A stretch of 55,825 bases of DNA from Candidatus Yanofskyibacteriota bacterium (GTDB lineage: Bacteria > Patescibacteriota > Minisyncoccia > 2-02-FULL-40-12 > GWA2-44-9). The notes beneath the pieces are model-generated. The model had not been told where the DNA came from. It ran no database searches and was given only the letters and a program-made list of their open reading frames with translations. This document shows positions 8,869 through 53,560 of the stretch, piece by piece (positions within the stretch are counted from its first letter, which is position 1; every line of letters starts with the position of its first letter). Where the stretch lies: contig JACPNL010000010.1 in assembly GCA_016185505.1 (NCBI GenBank), forward strand, positions 1-55,825, read 5' to 3'. Both the position numbers and the translations under genes were made by a program.

Positions 8869-9438
8869 TATTTTAATACTTGGGATGAAAATTTAAAGAC
8901 CCCTATTGGGGCCTCTTGTATCTTATCACGAAAAACAAACTCCGTATTTTTCACAAGCTAACACAAAATCTCTGATAAAAGGACCCTCTATCATGTCTAA
9001 TAAATTATGCCGTCTTCCTTGTGTTTTTATCCATGCCCCCGTCTTTTTTAAGAAAGAGGAATTCGGAGAATTTATCCCACGGATAGCGACTTATTACGGA
9101 TAACCGCTCAAGGTGTTCGGGGCCTTGCATAGATAAAAATCGTCCATCAAAAGACACCCGCAACTTTCTCACTTAGCGCTCCGTATACACCCCATAAAAC
9201 AAAAGGTCAACGAGTGTTGATAAGATCATTGACTTTTCACATACCATTTGCTATTCTTACATCATAAACGGCTTCGGCCTCGAAACACCCGCAAGGGTGT
9301 TTCAGACTTTTAGGGCTTAAAGAGCTTTTACCGCCTTATCCAGTTTATTGAATTGGTCTTCGGGCAGAGTGGCTATTTTATCTAATCCATCATCTGATTT
9401 TCTTGCGTCCCCCTTTGTGACGAATTCGGCCTATAATT

Positions 9439-9477
9439 TCGGGCCGCCCAGAGTCGAACTGGGTCTAACTGGTCCCA
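9439..9477 (-). pseudogene. Truncated tRNA-Pro (3' half only, from the anticodon onward)
   Basis: TGGGACCAGTTAGACCCAGTTCGACTCTGGGCGGCCCGA matches the 3' half of the intact tRNA-Pro at 9712..9782. Confidence 0.8.
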
Positions 9478-9504: not shown

Positions 9505-9573
9505 TCGGACTGCCCGGATTCGAACCGGGACTAACCTACAACTTTGACCTCTTTCCGTCGGTCAAGTCGCAGG
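9505..9573 (-). other. 3' part of an interrupted tRNA (T-arm plus acceptor 3' strand; possible extended anticodon-stem helix)
   Basis: GTAGGTTAGTCCCGGTTCGAATCCGGGCAGTCCGA; CAGTCCG is complementary to CGGACTG at 9901..9907. Confidence 0.7.
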
Positions 9574-9684
9574 CCCGCCTCATGGCTGAAAATCGCCGAT
9601 TGCGATTTTCAGCATCGCTCCGGCACTTGAATCGTAAAGAAAACATAAAGCAGTTTATGTTTTCTTTACGATTCAAGCATCCCA

Positions 9685-9808
9685 ACCTATGGTAGAATTT
9701 GGCCTAATATGTCGGGCCGCCCAGAATCGAACTGGGTCTAACTGGTCCCAAACCAGTCGTACCACCATCATACGCCGGCCCGATTAAGAGCCAAATTCTA
9801 CCATAGGT
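9685..9808. repeat. 19-bp perfect inverted repeat enclosing tRNA-Pro
   Basis: ACCTATGGTAGAATTTGGC at 9685-9703 and GCCAAATTCTACCATAGGT at 9790-9808. Confidence 0.95.
9712..9782 (-). tRNA. tRNA-Pro(TGG)
   Basis: CGGGCCG/CGGCCCG acceptor, TTTGGGA anticodon loop, GTTCGATTC T-loop. Confidence 0.93.
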
Positions 9809-9825
9809 CAAGAACGTCTCGCCTG

Positions 9826-9884
9826 CCCCGCACCAACCCCGCCCCCTTTTTGAATGGCGGTCAGCGGATAAGGTTGGTGCGGGG
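9826..9884. repeat. 59-bp CCCCGCACCAACC...GGTTGGTGCGGGG palindromic element within the split tRNA
   Basis: 13-bp terminal stem; internal CCGCTGACCGCCATTCA (minus strand) shared with the element at 52756..52877. Confidence 0.85.
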
Positions 9885-9907
9885 TGCTACCGTTACACTA
9901 CAGTCCG
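9884..9907 (-). other. 5' part of an interrupted tRNA (acceptor 5' strand plus D-arm)
   Basis: CGGACTG TA GTGT AACGGTA GCAC. Confidence 0.7.
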
Positions 9908-9944
9908 GTCTTAACGCAAAATTCACTACGAAACTTAATTTTTG

Positions 9945-10016
9945 TCTCCTCGCGAGGAATCGAACCTCGATTCGCGGCTTAGAAGGCCGCTGTTTTATCC
10001 GTTAAACTACGAGGAG
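9945..10016 (-). tRNA. tRNA-Arg(TCT)
   Basis: CTCCTCGTAGTTTAACGGATAAAACAGCGGCCTTCTAAGCCGC...GGTTCGATTCCTCGCGAGGAG. Confidence 0.93.
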
Positions 10017-21989: not shown

Positions 21990-23357
21990 TTAATCAAATA
22001 TTTTCAGCTCTCTTATCATTCTAAATTTCCTTAAAAAGTCCCTAGTTTCGGGCACCGCTCCGCGAGAGTTTAAGTCCAACCCGCCGGTAGTTAAATTATA
22101 CTTACTTGGACCGCCGTTATATATCATTCCCCTTACTTCATTTAGTTGATCCGGGGTTAAACCGTTAAACACCGCTCTGGCCCGTGAACCCCCGTTTTGA
22201 ACTCTATTTACAACGGTAGCCATGTGGTCGTCAAATACAAGAATTTGGGCCTTTATGGAATTTTTTATATCAATCCTGCCGATATCGGTATCTTTTATTA
22301 AATTGGCGGAAAGAAAACCGACAACCATGCTGTCATAAGTGCGGGGCATAATTTGGTTGGCGCCGGAGGCGCCGGTCTTAGAAACGGTATATCGAAACGC
22401 TTTTTCTCCATTGGCGCCGAAACGCCACAAAACTCTTTCAGCCTGTTCTCGGCCGCCATCCTCCGATGCAAACATCAGTTTGGGATCTGTTTGTTCGGTT
22501 AGGGTAATTTCTTTAACGAATTTCTGGGTCATCGTGTCGGTAACTAATTTACCCGGAAAAGCCTTGGATTCAACTCCGGCTTTTTCTAACTCCTCAAACG
22601 CTTGCGCGACATGAATATCTAGAAAGTCCTTACCGGAATCAACTATCGCGGGATCGCGTACTGACTTAGAATAAGGCGCGTATACAACATCAGAATATTT
22701 AGGGCCGGTCTTATCTTCGAGATATGCCAGACCGTCGTTACTCATCAAGAACTTATTGCCGATAACAATATATCTTGCCGGCTCACTAATCTTAACCTCA
22801 TCTGACTCAAGAACCGATCCAACAACGCCTAGATCAGAATTAAAATTATTCCACCAATATACAACAACCGATAGCTCGTCTTGATCATCCACGGGTTGAA
22901 AATAAGGCATACTTGTAGGATTCGGTTCGTAGTTTCTTCTCATTCTGTTGGCAATTTGTATCTCTTTTTCGTCCAGCCAATAGCGTCTAAGAAAGACCGC
23001 GCCCGCATCCGCGCTTATATTTGTATCAAGAATAGCTAACTCAATTTCTTTGCCGGTTAATCTGTTGTTTTTTTCTTCGAATTGAAGAGAAGGAGATTGT
23101 TCAAGATATGTTTTTGCCAATTCCATTTGATCAGCCAGAGTCCAGACGGGCATTTGAGGCAAAGGCGATACTTCAAGGTCAATAGTCTTACTCGGCAACG
23201 CCTCGGATATTTGAGCGGCTATTTGCGCGGATAGTTGAGTATATTTGGCGCCCAAAACAAATGCTGATATCACGAGAACTGTTAAAACAAGGAGAAGAAT
23301 TTTGCCGGGAAATTTTTTGAGTTGCATTTTGAGTTGCCTTAGTTTATCAAAGGACAT
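21990..23357 (-). CDS. Membrane-anchored hypothetical protein
   Basis: 455-aa ORF with N-terminal TM KILLLVLTVLVISAFVLGA. Confidence 0.75.
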   Translation of the reverse strand: MSFDKLRQLKMQLKKFPGKILLLVLTVLVISAFVLGAKYTQLSAQIAAQISEALPSKTIDLEVSPLPQMPVWTLADQMELAKTYLEQSPSLQFEEKNNRLTGKEIELAILDTNISADAGAVFLRRYWLDEKEIQIANRMRRNYEPNPTSMPYFQPVDDQDELSVVVYWWNNFNSDLGVVGSVLESDEVKISEPARYIVIGNKFLMSNDGLAYLEDKTGPKYSDVVYAPYSKSVRDPAIVDSGKDFLDIHVAQAFEELEKAGVESKAFPGKLVTDTMTQKFVKEITLTEQTDPKLMFASEDGGREQAERVLWRFGANGEKAFRYTVSKTGASGANQIMPRTYDSMVVGFLSANLIKDTDIGRIDIKNSIKAQILVFDDHMATVVNRVQNGGSRARAVFNGLTPDQLNEVRGMIYNGGPSKYNLTTGGLDLNSRGAVPETRDFLRKFRMIRELKIFD

Positions 23358-27070: not shown

Positions 27071-29221
27071 ATGAAAAAATATTTACCCATCGGCTTCTTT
27101 TCTCTCCTTTATCTTTTTAGTATCTCTCCTGTAGCCGTTGCAAATACTTTGCCCGCGCCTAACCACTCTATTTTTTTTGGTTACTATCATGCGGACGCTC
27201 AATACGGCGATTTTAAAAATGAAGTCAAAGATTACACGAACACTCAAATAATTATCGGCGATAGCTGGATCAGGCCGCCTGATGTCGCGGAATCGGATAT
27301 CCAGAAATTAAACGAAGCTCTTAGCGAAACCGCCGCTCTCGGCCAAAAAATTGTTCTTATTCCTTCGGGTGATTTAGATATTATACTGAATGCGGCTGCG
27401 CCATTTTGGGATAATGTCGCGTTTATTTATTTTGCCGATGAACCGAATTGGGATAAAGCCACAACCGAGGAAAATATCGGCTCATTTAAAAATAAAATTC
27501 GCAGGGCCGGGCTTTCTCAAAAAGAAATTGCCATAAATTATACTCCTGAACAGATACTTTCAGGAACGGGGTACCAAGCCGGTAATTTGAATATAGTCGG
27601 ATTTGAAGCATATGTTGACCCCGCGCAACAAAATAACCAGGATATCGTCGCTGACTTAAACGCGCAGATAGACAATCTCAAACAAAAAATAGGCAATAAA
27701 CAAATGTTCATCGTAATTCAGGCCTACGACAGAAATGGGGATTGGAAAAATATAACCTCACTCCAAAATATTCAAATACCGCCCTATCTGGCCGCTTATA
27801 ATGACGAACGTGTCATCGGATTGCTGATGTTCTCTTATGCCAGACCGGGAGGCACGCGGGATAACCCTATCTTAGCAGAACAGCATCGTTTGATCTGGCA
27901 AGCGATGCAAGGATTAACTGTTGACGTTGATCCTAAGAATATACCGGCCGTTGCGCCTACAAGCGTCTGGAGTCCTTCTCAAACCAATAACGGCTGGTGG
28001 CCGTCTTTGTCCCCGGACGGCAAATACGTTGCCTATGGTAATTTCGGCGAGAGCTGGGTAACTGACCTTTCAACTGGACAAAACTATGACCTTTCAAAGC
28101 CAGCAGGCCTGCCAGATGGAGCCCGTTGCAGGGGCGGACAATGGATAACATCAAGCAAGGTCACTTTTATTTGCGACAGCATTCCGGGGATAACTGGATT
28201 TTACCGATATGAAGCAGCCATTGGCGAGTGGATAGCGAGAAAAACCGATGACGACCCGAACAACGTAGTGAGCAGTATATTTGTCGCAAAAGACGGCCAC
28301 TGGGCATCTTTCTTAGCTCTAACCAGAATTATTAAAGACAACACAGTCCTTACCGATAACCAACCCGGAGGGGCAATAGCCATAAGCGGTGACTTGCTAG
28401 TAAACGCCTGCACCAACGAGAACCAGCAGATCTGCGTATGGGACAGGACTAACCTTTCTACGTCTTACGATGTCAGAACTCCCTTATTTGAAATGGATAT
28501 GGAAGATGGATATATTACTTATGGCGGATTTGGACCGATCCGAGGTATAGACCCGAGCGGAAAAGATATTGATCTGACGGCAACTGCCTGGAAACGAGAA
28601 GGATCGCCAAGAGTATTAATGGTCAACGGACAACCTTGGGTCGCCACTTATACTTGGGACGACACGTTGGGAGTTTCCAACGTATTGATCCGGCCGTGGG
28701 GAGAAAGAAAAAGTATCGTCTTGCAAATGGATGCGGCATCTTTAAGCGTGGTTTACACAAACGGAAACTTCATAGTTGCGGCTAATAACGATCGGGGCGG
28801 ATTAATAGTTCAAACCATCCCCGCGGATTCGCCAAGAGTTGATCTATCAGGCGGCTTGCCGTCAGAAACACCGGGGTTAAGTCCTGCAAACAAAAAGAGC
28901 TTTTCAAGTCCGGTTTTACCCGTTATCCCCACTGAAGGCCTCCCTTCTTTCGGCCAACTTATAGCCACGATCTTCACCTGGTCTCTCAATATTTTGGGCA
29001 TTGTGGTTTTTGTCATGATATTCTTTGCCGGATTTCAGTGGTTCACCGCCGCCGGCAATACGGCAAAAGTAAATGAGGCCAAGTCCAGAATAACCAATGC
29101 GATCACCGGAGCTCTTATACTTCTTGCGGCGTGGATAATATTATATACGATAAACCCTGATCTGGTCGGGGGAGTACTTACGCTACCGGGGGTAGGAACG
29201 GAAACAGAAACTGGAAATTAA
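27071..29221 (+). CDS. Secreted TIM-barrel-like and beta-propeller-like protein with the same C-terminal TrbC/VirB2-like module
   Basis: N-terminal signal; repeated PDGKYVAY-type blades; C-terminus near-identical to the upstream gene. Confidence 0.75.
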   Translation: MKKYLPIGFFSLLYLFSISPVAVANTLPAPNHSIFFGYYHADAQYGDFKNEVKDYTNTQIIIGDSWIRPPDVAESDIQKLNEALSETAALGQKIVLIPSGDLDIILNAAAPFWDNVAFIYFADEPNWDKATTEENIGSFKNKIRRAGLSQKEIAINYTPEQILSGTGYQAGNLNIVGFEAYVDPAQQNNQDIVADLNAQIDNLKQKIGNKQMFIVIQAYDRNGDWKNITSLQNIQIPPYLAAYNDERVIGLLMFSYARPGGTRDNPILAEQHRLIWQAMQGLTVDVDPKNIPAVAPTSVWSPSQTNNGWWPSLSPDGKYVAYGNFGESWVTDLSTGQNYDLSKPAGLPDGARCRGGQWITSSKVTFICDSIPGITGFYRYEAAIGEWIARKTDDDPNNVVSSIFVAKDGHWASFLALTRIIKDNTVLTDNQPGGAIAISGDLLVNACTNENQQICVWDRTNLSTSYDVRTPLFEMDMEDGYITYGGFGPIRGIDPSGKDIDLTATAWKREGSPRVLMVNGQPWVATYTWDDTLGVSNVLIRPWGERKSIVLQMDAASLSVVYTNGNFIVAANNDRGGLIVQTIPADSPRVDLSGGLPSETPGLSPANKKSFSSPVLPVIPTEGLPSFGQLIATIFTWSLNILGIVVFVMIFFAGFQWFTAAGNTAKVNEAKSRITNAITGALILLAAWIILYTINPDLVGGVLTLPGVGTETETGN

Positions 29222-51676: not shown

Positions 51677-53560
51677 ATGTCATATAAAAAACTCTCCATA
51701 TTAGTAATATTAGTTGCGCTGGTTTTGTCCATAACAAGCTTGTGGGACGACTCTTTCATCGTTGATGAGGTACCTCATGTCGGAGCCGGATATTCATATA
51801 TTACAAAAGGCGATATGCGGTTAAATCCCGAACACCCACCTCTGGCAAAAGATATAGCCGGAGCAGCTTTATCTTTTCTGGCTATAGATCAAACGGTATT
51901 TTCAACACAATATTGGGTTACTGATATAAATGGACAATGGAATTTCGGAAGAATTTTGATATATAACTCATCAAATGACGTTAATGCTATCACGAGAACC
52001 GCTAAAACGACGATGCTCATATTTTTCGTATTATCGGCTATCCTGATATACCGGTGGACGCGAGAACGATATGGAGATAGGGCGGCCTTCATCGCAACTT
52101 TGTTGTTTTCTTTCTCGCCCACGGTTCTGGCCCACTCGCGTTTTGTCACCACCGATATGCCGGCGCTGTTCGGAGTGCTTCTCGGTACTTACTTTTTTAT
52201 CAAATATTTACAGAAGCCGTCTCGAAGAACATTCTGGCTCGCGGTTCTGGCATTCGGCGTTGCCCAACTAACCAAATTTTCCGTTGTGCTTCTCGCGCCT
52301 CTATTCATATTGATGGTAATCGCGTGGTGCATAGCAAATTCATTATCTTTCAGAAAGTCGGCTGTTTTAGCCACTCGCTCACTGGTGTTGATGACGACGG
52401 GAATCATTCTTGTTGTCTGGCCGGTTTACGCTCTCCATACGATGAATTATCCGCCGGAGAAACAAAGCGCCGACACGGAATTTCATCTTGGTTCTTACGG
52501 CAACCGTTTATTTGCTGATCCCGTTGTATGGGCGTCAGACAAACCAGTCATAAGACCACTCGCCTATTATGCCACCGGAATTCTTATGGTTAATCAGAGA
52601 GCCATAGGCGGCAATAACACATTCTTTCTCGGCGAAGTAAGAAACTATGCCTGGAAACATTATTTTCCCGTCGTGTATGGGATAAAGGAACCAATTGCGT
52701 TTTGGGGATTGGTGGTAATCGTACTTTTGGCTTTGAGCCTGAAGGTTAAAAATTGCCCCGCACCAAACTTTTCCGCTGACCCCGCAGGAAGTTTTCCCGC
52801 TGACCGCCAATCAGATAGAGGGCGGACTTCCAGCGGGGCAGGCCGCCATTCAGAAAAGAGGCGGGTTTGGTACGGGGTTAGTTTTTGTTTCCAATCGCTT
52901 CGCTCTTGGACAAAAACTAACTTCGTTGAGTTCTCAATGCTGTTGTGGCTCGCGATATATTGGTATTTAAGTATTCGTGCCAATTTGAACATCGGGGTTA
53001 GGCACCTACTGCCCACTTACGGGTTTGTATTTATATTACTGGCTGGCCAGCTAGAGCGTATTACGTATTACGTATTACGTATTAAGAGGAAAATAGTCCT
53101 TACTACTTACTGCTTACTACTTACTGCTTTGCTTGGTTGGTATATCGTAGATGTCGTCCGAGTACACCCCTACTATTTAACTTATTTCAATCAACTGGCG
53201 GGCGGACCGGCGGGTGGCCACCGATACGCCGTTGATTCTAACTTGGACTGGGGACAGGACTTAAAGCGGTTAGCAGACTGGGTTGAAAAACGAGGGATAA
53301 ATAAAATTCACTTGGATTATTTTGGTTGGGCTGACCAAGGTTATTATTTAAAAGACAAACTTGTATGGATAAACGCAGGAACATATAAAGACGCTCGTGA
53401 CTTTCTCGCTCAAAATCCTAATGGTGGGCATATCGCCGTATCGGCTTCATTCTACACGGGTTCACGAGGCGACCCGGTCAACAACTACATCTGGCTGGAC
53501 GCGTATCGTCCAATAGCAACTATCGGGAACTCTATATTTGTGTGGAAAATTAGACCTTGA
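51677..53560 (+). CDS. Multi-pass dolichyl-phosphate-mannosyltransferase (PMT/GT39)-like protein
   Basis: IVDEVPHVGAGYSYI...LNPEHPPLAKDIAG; long TM series; track start 51515 reads through a repeat arm. Confidence 0.85.
   Translation: MSYKKLSILVILVALVLSITSLWDDSFIVDEVPHVGAGYSYITKGDMRLNPEHPPLAKDIAGAALSFLAIDQTVFSTQYWVTDINGQWNFGRILIYNSSNDVNAITRTAKTTMLIFFVLSAILIYRWTRERYGDRAAFIATLLFSFSPTVLAHSRFVTTDMPALFGVLLGTYFFIKYLQKPSRRTFWLAVLAFGVAQLTKFSVVLLAPLFILMVIAWCIANSLSFRKSAVLATRSLVLMTTGIILVVWPVYALHTMNYPPEKQSADTEFHLGSYGNRLFADPVVWASDKPVIRPLAYYATGILMVNQRAIGGNNTFFLGEVRNYAWKHYFPVVYGIKEPIAFWGLVVIVLLALSLKVKNCPAPNFSADPAGSFPADRQSDRGRTSSGAGRHSEKRRVWYGVSFCFQSLRSWTKTNFVEFSMLLWLAIYWYLSIRANLNIGVRHLLPTYGFVFILLAGQLERITYYVLRIKRKIVLTTYCLLLTALLGWYIVDVVRVHPYYLTYFNQLAGGPAGGHRYAVDSNLDWGQDLKRLADWVEKRGINKIHLDYFGWADQGYYLKDKLVWINAGTYKDARDFLAQNPNGGHIAVSASFYTGSRGDPVNNYIWLDAYRPIATIGNSIFVWKIRP
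52756..52877. repeat. Nested pair of CCCCGCA... palindromic elements within the glycosyltransferase gene
   Basis: Outer CCCCGCACCAAAC...GTTTGGTACGGGG interrupted by inner CCCCGCAGGAAGT...ACTTCCAGCGGGG (52780..52838). Confidence 0.9.

Follow-up and report, generated by a model that had tools for sequence, protein, structure and literature searches.

Why should the two ends of a tRNA-Pro gene lie apart in a bacterial genome, with a second and intact tRNA-Pro gene between them? This question is raised by positions 9,505-9,907 of a 55,825-nt stretch of DNA from a Candidatus Yanofskyibacteriota bacterium. The whole stretch, referred to here as the window, is contig 8 of a 681 kb draft genome in 32 contigs (G000). 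Our analysis favours, with some reserve, the answer that an old tRNA-Pro(UGG) gene was broken by three independent insertions, that one of these comes from an undescribed family of tRNA-inserting non-coding mobile elements, and that the outer gene is decaying. The initial annotation, which had been made from the sequence of the window, was right in recognising one tRNA with another nested inside it; it overlooked that a copy of a widespread element which targets tRNAs makes up the 3′ third of the insert.

All features of the locus are on the minus strand. The 5′ half of the outer tRNA-Pro (9884-9907) is composed of the acceptor strand CGGACTG, TA, and the D-arm GTGT-AACGGTA-GCAC, and it matches the intact tRNA-Pro of relatives at about 96%. 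The 3′ part (9505-9533) contains the variable loop TAGT, the T-arm, the acceptor strand CAGTCCG, and the discriminator A. Their assignment to a single tRNA-Pro(UGG) was borne out, as the acceptor strands pair at 7/7 positions and both ends match intact tRNA-Pro genes (GGG or TGG) in relatives; that the D-arm and T-arm are intact can be read directly in the sequence. The pentamer GTAGG (9539-9535), which had been counted with the tRNA 3′ half, is actually the 3′ strand of the terminal hairpin of the inserted element. The tRNA part starts at 9534/9533, the T at 9534 being either a base of the outer tRNA or the last base of the element.

The outer tRNA is split by a palindrome (9889-9821), a tRNA cassette (9808-9685), and a structured element (about 9677-9534). 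The palindrome, a dispersed repeat (9821-9889) with copies in relatives and in the same genome, does sit at the boundary of the D-stem and the anticodon stem as had been described, its first bases overlapping the AC of the tRNA, but the tRNA body continues beyond it with GAGACGTT (9820-9813) and TGGGATGCTT (9684-9675). The former, which is the 5′ anticodon strand, matches GCACGAGACGTTTGGGACGTTTTAGT of the intact tRNA-Pro(TGG) in G004, is identical in G011, a genome of another genus, and is followed by CTTG (9812-9809). The latter is probably the rest of the outer anticodon arm, as judged by comparison with G004, and it ends in CTT, three bases that pair with the guide described below. The cassette consists of the nested intact tRNA-Pro(TGG) (9711-9782), found by ARAGORN and scored at 47 bits by cmscan, and of the two arms of a perfect 19-bp inverted repeat (left 9790-9808, right 9685-9703), both of which our searches confirmed; the arms in G011 differ at many positions and still pair. 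The structured element begins with the hairpin P1 (9626-9677; 24 bp with a 4-nt loop), whose 3′ strand ACGATTCAAG occupies the position of the guide, and continues with a conserved core of 90 nt containing the helices P2, P3, and P4 (9535-9624), supported by covariation and by a match of 92.9 bits to our covariance model. Hairpins of 24 bp and 13 bp had been noted between the halves, and both are present, the second with 12-13 bp. The helix GCCTGCGAC..GTTGTAGG had been proposed to be an elongated anticodon stem. We rejected this proposal, since the helix is P4, the terminal hairpin of the core, and is conserved in unrelated elements at unrelated tRNAs. The folding of the whole locus gave z = −13.4 relative to shuffled sequences.

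The core covariance model, R1, was built from eight first copies and was applied to 58 relatives and to 286 genomes drawn across the class Paceibacteria/Parcubacteria. R1 gave 96 matches, with 36 of the 58 relatives carrying the core, and the core was also found in 57 of the 286 class genomes. Named contigs with a core belong to Candidatus Kaiserbacteria, Yanofskybacteria, and Kuenenbacteria. In a search of the window against Rfam 15 at the gathering score, tRNAs alone reached the threshold and no described RNA family matched the core; our literature searches found no description of such tRNA-inserted elements. As far as Rfam and the searched literature go, the family is apparently previously undescribed.

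We then read 80 core copies in detail. At 65 of these loci a tRNA ends on the same strand within 160 nt upstream, at a median distance of 54 nt. Three of the remaining loci follow a 3′ end resembling that of transfer-messenger RNA (tmRNA), and others are at broken or decayed or intron-bearing tRNAs. The carriers include tRNAs for Met, Val, Arg, Ser, Leu, Asp, Lys, Tyr, Thr, His, Ala, Pro, Trp, Ile, and Gly. Apparent tmRNA genes with a core element at their 3′ end were seen at L137 (contig 32 of G000), L146, and L132. The common order is a complete tRNA, a hairpin, a strand antisense to the 3′ part of this tRNA (in many cases divided by another hairpin), the core, and then the tRNA once more, from G57 to its 3′ end. 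Of the 62 loci used for the guide and repeat analysis, 30 have bases 57-73 again downstream of the core with 17/17 identity, and 39 have at least 16 identical bases. The usual insertion leaves the tRNA complete, with one copy of its 3′ part from G57 on each side of the element, and in several elements the downstream copy is degenerate. The insertion site varies. It is usually the T-loop, it is the 3′ end of tRNA-Val in two named contigs, and it is the variable loop in the window, where there is no duplicated tRNA 3′ end. That the locus is an artefact of assembly or a chance resemblance of tRNA pieces, as a 32-contig draft might lead one to suspect, has a practically negligible probability: the arrangement was assembled independently in G011, and the recurrence of the family in dozens of genomes refutes it.

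Directly before the core lies the guide, a segment antisense to positions 54-64 of the tRNA and spanning the insertion point C56|G57. The P1 3′ strand of the window is at the position homologous to this guide in 62 other elements. When the guide bases of the 62 loci were compared with tRNA positions 54-66 of their own locus, with 1000 shuffles among loci as the control, total pairing was 10.65, whereas the shuffles averaged 9.24 and reached at most 9.63. Position 59 was paired in 89% of loci (shuffled mean 44%, maximum 60%), with A-T, G-C, T-A, and C-G all frequent, and position 64 in 76% (40% shuffled). Tyr and His tRNAs with TGC instead of TTC in the T-loop are accompanied by guides with GCA instead of GAA. 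The guide positions that are not Watson-Crick paired, at 57-58, often have A facing G57 and G facing A58, an arrangement that tandem G·A pairs would give. As to which of the two copies of the tRNA 3′ part is followed by the guide, the answer was mixed: 36 positions fitted the upstream copy only and 17 the downstream copy only, some of these 17 being misassigned. The downstream copy lacks positions 54-55, and the guide therefore recognises the upstream tRNA across C56|G57.

Covariation in the core was analysed on an alignment of the 80 copies. In this alignment 30 of the 32 core pairs change on both sides. There were 666 cells changed on both sides as compared with 197 after shuffling, and the covariation score was 0.607 as compared with 0.185 for shuffled and 0.05-0.09 for slid alignments; the alignment was fitted to the model and is biased towards the structure, and the size of the gap makes it unlikely that bias explains all of it. 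G·T cells outnumber A·C cells by 147:41, mainly owing to two P4 pairs (59:39 without them), and one P4 pair is G·U in 48 of the 80 copies and G·C in at most one. The conserved G·U pairs of P4 and the excess of G·T over A·C therefore point to the core being an RNA of the tRNA strand. At L165 and L166, both in the one-contig genome G013, the cores are almost identical except in the P3 hairpin, whose sequence is wholly different; it seems that replacement alters P3 and the flanking stems more rapidly than individual changes do.

The element is variably present between related genomes. In G029, tRNA-Leu(CAG) is directly followed by the downstream gene, an empty site; at this place in G026 two units are arranged in tandem, and both close with a copy of the 3′ part of the tRNA. 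Within one genus, the tRNAs that carry the element differ from genome to genome. Comparison by eye of two cores in G013, one at Ser(GGA) and one at Val(TAC), showed a difference of one base outside P3, together with different guides. The empty site and the two near-identical cores of one genome support the mobility of the element.

The same observations bear on the possibility that the core is an inherited host regulatory RNA, whose antisense strand would pair by turns with the 3′ part of the tRNA itself and with the downstream copy, thereby controlling tRNA maturation. Two mutually exclusive antisense pairings are indeed possible, and both are conserved in most copies. We consider this quite improbable, as the set of carrier tRNAs differs within one genus and as empty sites, tandem units, and near-identical cores at different tRNAs of one genome were found.

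A classical site-specific integration, in which the elements would be remnants or minimal derivatives of tyrosine-recombinase islands and the duplicated tRNA 3′ ends would be attL and attR, has also to be considered. Many tRNA-integrated islands duplicate the block from the T-loop to the 3′ end of the tRNA, and this is the block duplicated by the element in its usual form; the empty site of G029, as compared with G026, also agrees with this reading. No integrase was found beside the element: the core starts at the short median distance from the tRNA end given above, and no open reading frame of at least 90 aa overlaps 9505-9907. Each copy is at most a few hundred bases long, with no room for a gene, and att sites of a recombinase need neither a strongly covarying RNA core nor a guide re-matched for each tRNA. 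Collections of viral contigs, phages, and plasmids contained no core match at the sensitivity used, and a phage or plasmid origin was rejected for this reason. We regard site-specific integration as very improbable. Compared with tRNA-integrated islands and minimal integrative elements in general, the element is alike in its insertion at the tRNA 3′ part and in the duplicated 3′ end that keeps the tRNA complete; unlike them, it carries no integrase or cargo and has a structured RNA core and a tRNA-specific guide.

The proposed course is as follows. The element would be transcribed as RNA together with the tRNA, and the RNA would fold into a P2/P3 arm and a P4 hairpin. The guide just before P2 would pair with the tRNA sequence across the insertion point and so choose or align the target. 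The element would move and insert most often in the T-loop, and here at the variable loop. In the present locus, the nested tRNA would take over UGG decoding while the outer gene decays.

Several points weigh against our preferred answer. The guide position of the window, like that of G011, finds its sole partner in the local P1 strand and does not pair with the T-loop copy, and the making of a new guide for each tRNA is unexplained. No mobilising protein was found: among the 58 relatives, Y1 transposase (31/58), reverse transcriptase (36/58), and RtcB (6/58) do not track the element, and Y1 transposase is absent from several carriers, including G013. RAYT, reverse transcriptase, and RtcB were rejected as partners, since their presence does not follow the element. 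Movement itself was not observed and is inferred. The comparison with G011 is also difficult to reconcile with a long-dead outer gene. This genome has the same three insertions at the same positions, assembled independently, with intergenic flanks that no longer align with those of the window; the outer acceptor stem differs at two pairs by compensation (CGGACTG/CAGTCCG in the window, CGGGATG/CATCCCG in G011), and the D-arm and the 5′ anticodon strand are identical, which is unexpected if the gene died before the two lineages split. GTAGTGTAACGGTAGC and GAGACGTTCTTG are identical between the two. Either the outer RNA would have been useful long after the insertions, or parts of the locus would have been exchanged between lineages. 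Horizontal exchange is kept as a possibility because in two genomes of the same genus the interrupted locus could not be matched, and in one of these, G001, the tRNA-Pro(TGG) gene is a plain one.

The initial annotation had left it between a dead tRNA and an RNA processed across the nested tRNA. Decay of the outer gene is favoured because an intact UGG isoacceptor exists, namely the nested copy, whereas the compensatory acceptor changes in G011 argue for selection after the insertions. An argument from a sole copy fails, as intact genes for Pro UGG, CGG, and GGG are all present, those for GGG and CGG elsewhere in the genome. Other outer tRNAs are clearly broken. The outer tRNA-Pro is probably no longer used, its nested twin supplying UGG.

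Against decay stands the view that the outer tRNA-Pro is functional and the element is a new small intron, with a guide that splints the 5′ exon end to the 3′ exon start, the RNA being joined across the nested tRNA. The four outer pieces, when joined, make a 71-nt tRNA-Pro(tgg) with correct arm lengths that ARAGORN accepts; the interrupted gene itself was not called by ARAGORN with introns up to 500 nt allowed. The compensated acceptor stem between two genera, the guide of T-loop elements that is continuous over C56|G57 like a P1+P10 splint, and the strand asymmetry that indicates RNA also agree with this view. However, the nested gene makes this isoacceptor redundant, the joined tRNA has a weak anticodon stem (one A·C and several G·U pairs), and G011 has lost the 5′ T-stem strand of its outer tRNA. 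In several elements the downstream copy is degenerate, so that splicing would spoil a good tRNA. RtcB ligase has no match in the genome of the window, and the core gave no group I match although the same search found one in the tRNA-Phe of this genome. A functional outer tRNA is, in our judgement, unlikely. That the core is a minimal tRNA-invading intron of at most a few hundred nt, splicing at tRNA loops with a contiguous guide as a two-exon splint, and that tRNA-Pro is still made across the nested tRNA, appears distinctly unlikely.

Group I introns in tRNA genes are similar in that an internal guide pairs across the exon junction, in their tRNA gene sites, and in their covarying helices; the present core differs in its size of about 90 nt and in its usual site, the T-loop, where the 3′ part of the tRNA is present twice. 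A guide does lie over C56|G57, as it does at the splice-site region of group I introns, which is an analogy and not a proof, self-splicing being hypothetical here. Searches of the window and of four further core loci, with E limits of 10 or 0.5, gave no match to Intron_gpI (RF00028), and without an Rfam match the identification of the core as a group I intron was rejected. Elsewhere in the source genome, a tRNA-Phe(GAA) with an Intron_gpI match of 68 bits was found on contig 7 (L183, 519-884, minus strand), no other tRNA-Phe being seen in this genome, and a tRNA-Thr(GGT) with a 192-nt intron according to ARAGORN was found on contig 1 (L181, 423-688, plus strand), with no Rfam group I match at E 0.5.

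Other known systems share single traits with the element. IS110-family bridge RNAs and TnpB/IscB guide RNAs are likewise structured non-coding RNAs of mobile elements with a segment complementary to the target. The IS110 bridge RNA has two guide loops and a DEDD transposase, whereas the element shows one continuous guide and no protein gene in or beside it, a transposase not having been searched for. REP/RAYT repeats are small dispersed hairpins, and the palindrome at 9889-9821 has this general look; unlike them, the core sits at tRNAs and tmRNA, and G013 has cores without a Y1 transposase match. Split, permuted, and intron-bearing archaeal tRNAs also have halves that are apart in the genome. 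Here the halves are in the normal order on one strand and no RtcB match accompanies them.

The first of the three insertions, the palindrome (59 bp; about 60 nt), is an intergenic repeat with many copies in relatives and in this genome, most of which are not near tRNAs. The window contains a second one, more diverged, at 52756-52843 on the plus strand (77-92% in two pieces).

As for the cassette, inverted repeats of at least 11 bp flank 6 of the 240 distinct tRNAs in the examined loci and none of 240 shuffled controls, which never exceeded 9 bp. All six of these tRNAs lie within pieces of another tRNA, the outer pieces being identified by eye. The nested tRNA is mostly of the same isotype as the outer one: four cases are a Pro tRNA within a Pro tRNA, one is Glu(CTC) within Glu(CTC), and one is Val(CAC) within an unidentified tRNA. 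In G030, the nesting of the two tRNA-Pro lineages is reversed. On contig 25 of G000, a broken Glu(CTC)-like tRNA contains in its D-loop a tRNA-Glu(CTC) in an inverted repeat (L194, about 22500-22750, minus strand), and an unidentified tRNA (GGGCCGT..ACGGCCC) has a tRNA-Val(CAC) nested in its anticodon loop (L074, about 28500-28860, minus strand). The latter has a core element at the variable loop and is the closest parallel to the locus of the window. A second type of insert follows the nested tRNA-Pro at L085, L086, L083, and L189. It consists of a hairpin GGGAATGC..GCATTCCC (or similar) and a GGCGCGAAGC-like stem, ends at the variable loop, and may be another element family.

The nested tRNA of the window is likely the ortholog of the ordinary tRNA-Pro(TGG) that adjoins Arg(TCT) in many relatives. 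A tRNA-Arg(TCT) is located directly upstream of the present locus (9944-10016, minus strand); it is syntenic in G011, and several relatives have it close to tRNA-Pro(TGG). A relic second copy (9439-9476, minus strand), with the 3′ half of a tRNA-Pro of the nested type and part of its 3′ flank, follows downstream of the outer 3′ half. This repeat (9422-9477, 91% identical to 9695-9750) suggests a further interleaved insertion or a duplication.

The element recurs across many families of a large uncultured bacterial group. It explains several puzzling broken and nested tRNAs in reduced genomes, which the standard tRNA finder passed over here. A compact RNA with a re-matched antisense copy of its host tRNA would give a genetic element a new means of recognising and occupying the most conserved genes of a cell while leaving them unbroken.
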